NCBI GenBank assembly: GCA_902827205.1
Contig: LR792634.1
Span: 558,001 to 622,000 of the forward strand
Reading direction: 5' to 3'
Source of the DNA: Methanocaldococcus lauensis
GTDB lineage: Archaea > AGJL01 > Methanococci > Methanococcales > Methanocaldococcaceae
Length of the DNA: 64,000 nt
A program made the translations under genes and the position numbers. Under the pieces are notes generated by a model. It saw nothing but the letters and a program-made list of their open reading frames with translations, did no database searches and was not told where the DNA came from. This document shows positions 13,004-15,967 of the stretch, one piece after another; within the stretch, counting starts at the first letter, position 1; every line of letters begins with the position of its first letter.

Positions 13004-13138
13004 AATAACATCTAAATTTTTTTTGCTTATTAGTATATAATTTCATTTTAAGTTTTTAAGTCTTATTTTAATTAAACTATTTTTATGAGTTTTTAATCTA
13101 ATAATTGTTAATTAGTTAGAAAATAAAAGGTGAGATTT

Positions 13139-14242
13139 ATGGAATTAACGCCATGGGAAACTCCGACAGTTATAGATTATAGAAAAACAATGGAACAGTT
13201 TGGAATAAAACCAATAGATAATATCTTAAAGGATTTAAAAGATGAACATCATTTTTTTAGGAGAAATATTATACTCGGACATAGAGATTTTGAAAAAATA
13301 GTGGAATCTATAAAAAATAATAAAGAGTTTGCTGTAGTTAGTGGAATGATGCCCTCTGGAAAAATGCACTTTGGGCATAAGATGGTTGTTGATTTATTAA
13401 AATATTATCAAAAATACACTGACAATATAAATATTCCTATAGCAGACTTAGAGGCATACTGGGCAAGAAACATGAGTTTTGAAAAAACTAAAAAACTTGC
13501 TTTAAATGAATATATAACCAACTATATTGCCCTTGGATTGGAGCCAGAAAAAATAAATGTATATTTACAGTCAAAATATCAAAAAGTTAAAGATTTGACT
13601 TTAATTTTATCTAAAAAAACAAATTGGAGCGAAATGAGTGCAATTTATGGATTTAAAGGAGAGACAAATATAGGACATGTGATTGCTCCAATAGTTCAAG
13701 TTGCAGATATACTACATCCTCAACTCGACGAAAATTTAAATCCAGAACCAAAACCAGTTGTTGTTCCAGTAGGGATTGATCAAGATCCACACATTAGATT
13801 AACAAGGGATATAGCCAACAGAGCCAAAGAATTTAAATTTATTCCTCCCTCCTCAACATATCATAGATTTATGACTGGATTGTTAGGAGGAAAAATGAGT
13901 TCTTCAAAGCCAGAGACAGCAATATTTTTAACTGATGATGAAGAAACTGTTAAAAAGAAAATATTTTCAGCTAAAACTGGCGGTAGAAAAACTTTAGAAG
14001 AACATAAGAAATATGGAGGTATTCCAGAGGAATGTGTCATTTATGAGTTATTCTTATATCACTTAATTTTAGATGATAATGAACTTTTAGAAATTTATAG
14101 AAAATGTAAAAGTGGAGAATTAACATGTGGAAAGTGTAAAAAAATGGCTTATGAAATGGTTATAGAATTTTTAAAAGATTTAAATGAAAAGAGAAAACAG
14201 GCAAAAGAAATTGCACTAAAAATATTAGAAGGAAAGTATTAA
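13139..14242 (+). CDS. trpS: tryptophanyl-tRNA synthetase
   Basis: A class I aminoacyl-tRNA synthetase of 367 residues starting at MELTPWETPTV, after ggtgagattt; the frame from 13130 adds three codons without support. The HIGH signature appears as SGKMHFGHKMV at about 85-95 and the KMSKS signature as GGKMSSSKPE at about 250-260. The VGIDQDPHIRLTRDIA element is the tryptophan-type (as opposed to tyrosyl) active site of archaeal enzymes. A Cys pair near the C-terminus (CGKCKKM) is also seen. It charges tRNA-Trp. It is followed at once by the C/D box RNA gene. Confidence 0.95.
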   Translation: MELTPWETPTVIDYRKTMEQFGIKPIDNILKDLKDEHHFFRRNIILGHRDFEKIVESIKNNKEFAVVSGMMPSGKMHFGHKMVVDLLKYYQKYTDNINIPIADLEAYWARNMSFEKTKKLALNEYITNYIALGLEPEKINVYLQSKYQKVKDLTLILSKKTNWSEMSAIYGFKGETNIGHVIAPIVQVADILHPQLDENLNPEPKPVVVPVGIDQDPHIRLTRDIANRAKEFKFIPPSSTYHRFMTGLLGGKMSSSKPETAIFLTDDEETVKKKIFSAKTGGRKTLEEHKKYGGIPEECVIYELFLYHLILDDNELLEIYRKCKSGELTCGKCKKMAYEMVIEFLKDLNEKRKQAKEIALKILEGKY

Positions 14243-14270: not shown

Positions 14271-14337
14271 TTGGCGATGATGACAATTTCGCTATCTGAT
14301 TTTTGTATAATGATGACTACTCCCGCAGCTGAGCCAA
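14271..14337 (+). ncRNA. C/D box guide RNA (sRNA)
   Basis: A complete archaeal double-guide C/D RNA of 67 bases. It has a closing stem TTGGC/GCCAA (14271-14275 with 14333-14337), C box GATGATGA (14276-14283), D' box CTGA (14296-14299), C' box ATGATGA (14310-14316) and D box CTGA (14329-14332). The two guides are 12 bases each. The D' guide is complementary to UAGCGAAAUU, a highly conserved segment of 23S rRNA domain IV, placing 2'-O-methylation on the C of UAGC by the fifth-base rule. The D guide would pair with CUGCGGGAGUAG; I cannot place that target. A T-run follows at 14341-14346 and may end transcription. Confidence 0.9.
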
Positions 14338-14344
14338 ACCTTTT

Positions 14345-15967
14345 TTAAATTCTCTTTAAATATTCATCAACATCATAATCTACCTTTTCAAACCATATTT
14401 TATTATCTTTTATAACTATATTTCCTCTCCATTCTTCTTTACTTTCTGGATGATCTTCTCTATAATGTGCTCCTCTACTTTCCTCTCTATACAAGGCTGA
14501 TTTTGTAACTAATTTAGCAACGGTAATCATATTTTTTAATTCAAAATATTTTTGCATGTCAATTATTCCACTAACTTTAACATATTTTATATTTTTTTCA
14601 ATTTCTTCAATTTTTTTTAGACCTTTTTTTAAACCTTCTTCACATCTAACAATAGATACGTAATCCCACATTACTTTTTTTAAATCTTTAATTAAATTGT
14701 AAAGATTTAAATTTCCTTCTAAGTTATTTACTTCTTCTTTAAAGTCTGTAATCAAATCCTCTACATTAATATATTCAAATTCACAATTTTCAGCGAATTC
14801 CTTTGCTGATTTTCCAGCGATAGAACCAAAAACTTGAGTATCTGCCAAGGCATTTCCTCCTAATCTATTAGCCCCATGAATTCCACCAGTAACTTCTCCA
14901 CAAGCAAACAATCCCTCTATATTAGTTTCACATTTTTCATTAATTCTCAAACCACCCATAAAATGATGAGCGGTTGGAGAAACTATCATAGGCTCCTTTC
15001 TAATATCAATTCCAATCTTTAAAAATTGTTTAAGCATTGTCTCTAATTTTTTCTCAATAACTTCGTTAGGTAAGTGAGATACATCCAAATAAACTCCTCC
15101 ATTAACTCCTCTACCTTCTTGAATCTCTTTATAAATAGCTCTTGCAACTATATCCCTTGTAGATAACTCCATTCTTTCCTTGTCGTATCTTGCCATAAAT
15201 CTTTCTTTATTTTTGTTATATAGTATTCCTCCCTCTCCTCTCACAGCCTCTGTAACCAAGATTCCTGAACCCACTATGCCAGTAGGATGAAATTGAACCA
15301 TTTCCATATCTATAAGTTCAGCTCCTTCATTATATGCTATAGCAAATCCATCTCCAACCTTTTGAATAGGATTTGATGTTACAGGATAGAGTTGTCCAGC
15401 TCCTCCAGTTGCCAATATTGTTGCCTTTGCAAATATTGGAAATATATCTCCAGTTTTCAAATCTAAAAAAATAGCTCCATAGCATCTATTATTATTTACA
15501 ATTAACTTTATTGCCATAACATCTTCTAAGATTTTAATCCTTTCAAATTTTGATATATATTCCATCAAACCTCTCATTATTTCATGTCCAGTTCTATCTC
15601 CACAGTAACATGTTCTATTAAAACTCTGCCCTCCAAAAGGTCTCTGAGCTATAAAACCATTTTCATCCCTATCAAATAGACAGCCGAACTTTTCTAAGTT
15701 TAAAAGTTCCTTAGGAGCATTTTTTACTAATATTTCCACTAATTTAGGGTTATTTATAAATCCTCCACCTTTTACTGTATCATAAAAATGCTTTTTAAAA
15801 CTATCCTTTGGATTAAATACTGCATTATAACCTCCTTCAGCCATTACTGTGCATCCACTTTTTCCAAATAATCCTTTTACTGCTATTATAACATCTTTAT
15901 TTCTACATTCTATTGCCGATCTAACTGCTGAACCTCCTCCACCTATAATTAGAATATCAGTTTTCAT
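14345..15967 (-). CDS. tfrA: thiol:fumarate reductase subunit A (flavoprotein)
   Basis: A 540-residue flavoprotein of the succinate dehydrogenase/fumarate reductase family. The FAD-binding GGGGSAVRSAIECR is at residues 9-22, the substrate region MVQFHPTGIVGSG near 220, and a His-tRNA-like C-terminal helical domain holds YREESRGAHYREDHPE near 495. In methanogens TfrA with the Fe-S/heterodisulfide-type TfrB reduces fumarate to succinate with coenzyme M and coenzyme B thiols. tfrB is not in the window. The closely similar L-aspartate oxidase is the main alternative. Start is the ATG after ggtgataag. Confidence 0.88.
   Translation of the reverse strand: MKTDILIIGGGGSAVRSAIECRNKDVIIAVKGLFGKSGCTVMAEGGYNAVFNPKDSFKKHFYDTVKGGGFINNPKLVEILVKNAPKELLNLEKFGCLFDRDENGFIAQRPFGGQSFNRTCYCGDRTGHEIMRGLMEYISKFERIKILEDVMAIKLIVNNNRCYGAIFLDLKTGDIFPIFAKATILATGGAGQLYPVTSNPIQKVGDGFAIAYNEGAELIDMEMVQFHPTGIVGSGILVTEAVRGEGGILYNKNKERFMARYDKERMELSTRDIVARAIYKEIQEGRGVNGGVYLDVSHLPNEVIEKKLETMLKQFLKIGIDIRKEPMIVSPTAHHFMGGLRINEKCETNIEGLFACGEVTGGIHGANRLGGNALADTQVFGSIAGKSAKEFAENCEFEYINVEDLITDFKEEVNNLEGNLNLYNLIKDLKKVMWDYVSIVRCEEGLKKGLKKIEEIEKNIKYVKVSGIIDMQKYFELKNMITVAKLVTKSALYREESRGAHYREDHPESKEEWRGNIVIKDNKIWFEKVDYDVDEYLKRI

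Follow-up and report, generated by a model that had tools for sequence, protein, structure and literature searches.

The sR39 gene and its family

The window, a 64,000-nucleotide stretch of Methanocaldococcus lauensis DNA, holds a C/D box sRNA gene on its plus strand at positions 14271–14337, located between trpS (13130–14242, plus strand; TIGR00233, PF00579) and the convergent tfrA (TfrA; 14345–15967, minus strand; NF004900). The original prediction had named both neighbors correctly; the contact it had proposed with each of them is in fact a gap, since the sRNA starts 28 nt past the trpS stop (14242) and stops 7 nt short of the tfrA end (14345). From 5′ to 3′ the gene reads TTGGC-G-ATGATGA-CAATTTCGCTAT-CTGA-TTTTTGTATAA-TGATGA-CTACTCCCGCAG-CTGA-GCCAA and comprises, all on the plus strand, the 5′ arm of the closing stem TTGGC (14271–14275), the C box ATGATGA (14277–14283), the D′ guide CAATTTCGCTAT (14284–14295), the D′ box CTGA (14296–14299), an 11-nt D′–C′ spacer TTTTTGTATAA (14300–14310), the C′ box TGATGA (14311–14316), the D guide CTACTCCCGCAG (14317–14328), the D box CTGA (14329–14332) and the 3′ arm GCCAA (14333–14337). 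The sequence and coordinates of a C/D box RNA with four boxes, a closing stem and two 12-nt guides, as first proposed, are hereby confirmed. The archaeal box motifs RUGAUGA, CUGA, UGAUGA and CUGA follow one another in this order, with both guides inside the 9–14 nt range, and the 5 bp stem adjoins the C and D boxes, from which a kink-turn geometry is predicted. The three innermost stem pairs form in all 37 sequences compared, and a compensated variant, GGGT/ACCC, occurs at locus L016. Scanning the window for the C–D′–C′–D pattern returned this sRNA as the single match, and the pattern, even when relaxed, gave no match in 60 simulated windows matched to it in dinucleotide content.

A search against Rfam assigns the gene to RF01122 (sR39). 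Its score of 70.2 bits (E 4.7e-15 over the window) clears the family's gathering score of 50 bits, and the match runs over the full model (1–56 of 56), spanning 14273–14334. Judged by its sequence, 14271–14337 is the Methanocaldococcus ortholog of the catalogued sR39, a family already known from heat-loving archaea; the original prediction was incomplete here, as the RNA is not an unrecorded one. The window copy shares with the RF01122 sR39 the boxes, the D′ guide AATTTCGCTA, the register of the D guide and the GGC/GCC closing stem, and differs from it at position 1 of the D′ guide (T in the window, G in RF01122 sR39) and from the Thermococcales copies in the D guide (TACTCCCGC versus TACCCTCGC).

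Each of the 14 genomes of the genus, among them that of the window, has a single sR39 match (12 above cut-off), and the named control genome of M. jannaschii has one too. Among the Thermococcales, 38 of the 41 genomes searched have a match, 34 of the 41 above cut-off. The family search found no sR39 in the 22 genomes of the order's other family, where a pattern scan allowing two mismatches returned one poor match only (G023), with D′ box and guide disrupted. No sR39 turned up in this sister family (G014–G035) although its helix 69 and D′ target sequences are unchanged where the 23S rRNA was inspected.

Across the sR39 copies the guides and boxes are near-invariant, and it is the D′–C′ spacer and the flanks that vary. 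The spacer measures 4–13 nt in the genus and 3–9 nt in Thermococcales; the 11 nt found in the window (up to 13 nt in close relatives) compare with 3–5 nt in most other copies and with about 4 nt in most Thermococcales sR39. In one Thermococcales genome (L159, G063:C1:1694700-1695650) some 400 nt of inserted sequence split sR39 within this spacer; the insertion has GC-rich hairpins near both ends and resembles the remnant of an IS200/IS605-type element. The same genome holds a weaker second match elsewhere, with the same D′ guide as the split sR39.

Predicted targets of the two guides

Pairing was compared in the 31 genomes for which both the sRNA and 23S rRNA were at hand (9 of the Methanocaldococcus group and 22 Thermococcales), with E. 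coli positions given in rrlB numbering, in which U1939 coincides with the known m5U1939. The D′ guide pairs with GTAGCGAAATTC at 23S 2035–2046, and its nine core positions (3–11) are all Watson–Crick paired in 31 of 31 genomes. This bears out the clear site first proposed for this guide in domain IV, at UAGCGAAAUU. This target ranks first among 2970 23S columns and is equalled by 0 of 1000 permuted guides. Under the rule that the methylated site faces the fifth guide base upstream of the D box (PMC4644070), position +5 of the D′ guide, G14291, faces 23S C2039 (E. coli C1934), for which the guide predicts a Cm, in our view a highly probable one.

The D guide pairs with helix 69, at 23S 2007–2018 (CGGCGGGGGTAA), with position +5, C14324, facing G2011 (E. 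coli G1906). The duplex consists of nine contiguous pairs, one of them G–U, and a further pair at position 1; position 2, beside the D box, carries a fixed mismatch. Nine contiguous pairs, with one G–U or none, form in all 31 genomes. The D guides of the two lineages, TACTCCCGC and TACCCTCGC, each leave one G–U wobble and the U that faces G has moved between them, and in one genome all nine pairs are Watson–Crick. Helix 69 is the best of the 2970 columns for this guide as well, and none of 1000 permuted guides does as well. Its sequence is invariant across the set and covariation of target and guide is therefore not visible. Complementarity covers position +5 in both cases, strictly for the D′ guide at C2039 and in relaxed form for the D guide at G2011. 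With its G–U wobble, the helix 69 duplex falls under the relaxed double-guide definition of PMC4644070 only, rather than under that of nine Watson–Crick pairs; because of this, and of the mismatch near the box, we rate a Gm at G2011 lower than the mark at C2039, as a likely modification.

The two predicted sites, 2011 and 2039, lie 28 nt apart, and a double guide is defined as one whose D and D′ targets are separate sites within 100 nt (PMC4644070). Since both guides show conserved pairing at this short distance, sR39 is very probably a double guide acting on the H69–H71 region of the subunit interface and would place two methyl marks in 23S rRNA. Helices 68, 69 and 71 are methylation hotspots at this interface (PMC4644070). 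The arrangement resembles that of the Tte sR114/Pca sR28/Sac sR115 group (PMC4644070), in which both guides also act on linked sites and different species keep the coupling; those RNAs act on 16S helix 18, whereas the sR39 targets are in 23S rRNA. The analysis yields two concrete, testable methylation predictions (corresponding to E. coli C1934 and G1906) in a part of 23S rRNA in contact with the small subunit, and a guide RNA whose coupling of both sites is kept in Methanocaldococcus and Thermococcales. No new kind of system is needed to place the guide once taken for an orphan, and the importance of the result is modest.

In C/D RNPs, L7Ae binds the C/D and C′/D′ kink-turns, and Nop5 and fibrillarin assemble on them. 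Starting from the observed family membership, box anatomy and conserved complementarity, we infer from such established knowledge that the RNA is expressed and that L7Ae, Nop5 and fibrillarin assemble on it. Each guide would then hold its stretch of rRNA in place for fibrillarin, which would methylate the nucleotide facing the fifth guide base before each D box, the D′ guide giving the mark at C2039 and the D guide that at G2011, at the base of helix 69. One particle could hold both sites because they are within about 40 nt of each other, and the same particle may also chaperone the folding of H69–H71.

A second C/D sRNA present in several Thermococcales (L160–L166), scoring below the RF01122 gathering score, couples the same region. 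It carries the D′ guide of sR39, AATTTCGCTA, directed to C1934, together with a D guide, CCCTGCCGTTA, that is unrelated in sequence to that of sR39 but likewise pairs with helix 69. The best 23S match of CCCTGCCGTTA is shifted by 3 nt relative to that of sR39, with a predicted E. coli position of 1903, and provides an independent hint that helix 69 is the D target. Three genomes (G052, G084 and G087) have no full sR39 match, but the second sRNA is present in them.

Other candidate targets of the D guide

In this genome a second 23S site, 1318–1329 (CTGCGGGGGTAG), pairs with the D guide better than helix 69 does, forming 12 pairs, 11 Watson–Crick and one G–U wobble, and is among the few mismatch-free sites genome-wide, the gene itself aside. 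It might be the working target here, instead of or besides helix 69, with G1322 (aligned with E. coli 1204) as the nucleotide marked. That one guide can have two targets is on record (PMC4644070, Table 3), and in one genome (G002) two changes in the D guide fit the sequence of this site. The pairing decays among relatives, however: within the Methanocaldococcus group a core position is mismatched in G013 and G012 and position 2 is mismatched in four other species, and Thermococcales, which keep the guide, have the pairing broken throughout. The site also lies about 700 nt away from the D′ target. We consider 1318–1329 rather unlikely as the working target in this genome, hold an additional methylation at G1322 to be similarly doubtful, and reject the site as a D target shared between the lineages. 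Rather less probable still is a D guide with two 23S targets in this Methanocaldococcus lineage, the helix 69 site shared with Thermococcales and the lineage-specific 1318–1329; were this true, a third methylation would arise from one sRNA.

Helix 69 remains our preferred target. It lies 28 nt upstream of the D′ target, and its pairing, conserved in 31 of 31 genomes and out of reach of the shuffled guides (0 of 1000), overturns the earlier description of the D guide as an orphan, as does the match to 23S 1318–1329 in this genome. In a survey, roughly a third of archaeal C/D sRNAs were without a significant rRNA match (PMC4644070), and weak tRNA matches to the D guide do exist. A functional D′ guide combined with a D guide that is a true orphan, or is aimed at a tRNA or another RNA, is nevertheless improbable in view of the conserved helix 69 complementarity and of the lower scores of the tRNA matches in this genome (pairing scan, 30 of 36 tRNAs). 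A whole-genome pattern scan with the D guide gave no mismatch-free tRNA match. One site at the 5′ end of tRNA-Ser (G000 609305–609316, one mismatch) was judged a chance match, as it overruns the tRNA 5′ end.

Neighboring genes and expression

Most archaeal C/D sRNAs are without a promoter of their own; they frequently overlap a gene at its 3′ end, and their maturation is possible from any transcribed surroundings (PMC7994747). Processing of the sRNA from the trpS transcript, as raised in the original prediction, is on this ground plausible at the present locus; as a general dependence it does not hold, because trpS lies upstream in only 2 of the 14 loci (the window's own and that of another genome of its species) and no same-strand gene lies upstream in three (G003, G009 and G010). 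A SufBD-core protein is the upstream neighbor in 6 of the 14 loci (PF01458 in the two loci tested, the remainder assigned by the same C-terminal sequence), and other same-strand genes precede the sRNA in the remaining 3. The linkage to trpS is a local arrangement and not a conserved property. That the locus is a functionless sequence relic or part of a UTR, as its position 28 nt behind trpS might suggest, has a negligible likelihood, given that boxes and guides are kept in 14 of 14 loci while flanks drift and neighbors change, and that this conservation is common to Thermococcales as well. At two loci (L015 and L016, from G012 and G008; at about base 1500–1560, on the sRNA strand) the upstream reading frame enters the sRNA gene: the protein ends ...GDDENFAI, its stop codon lies within the D′ box, and the C box and the D′ guide are translated.
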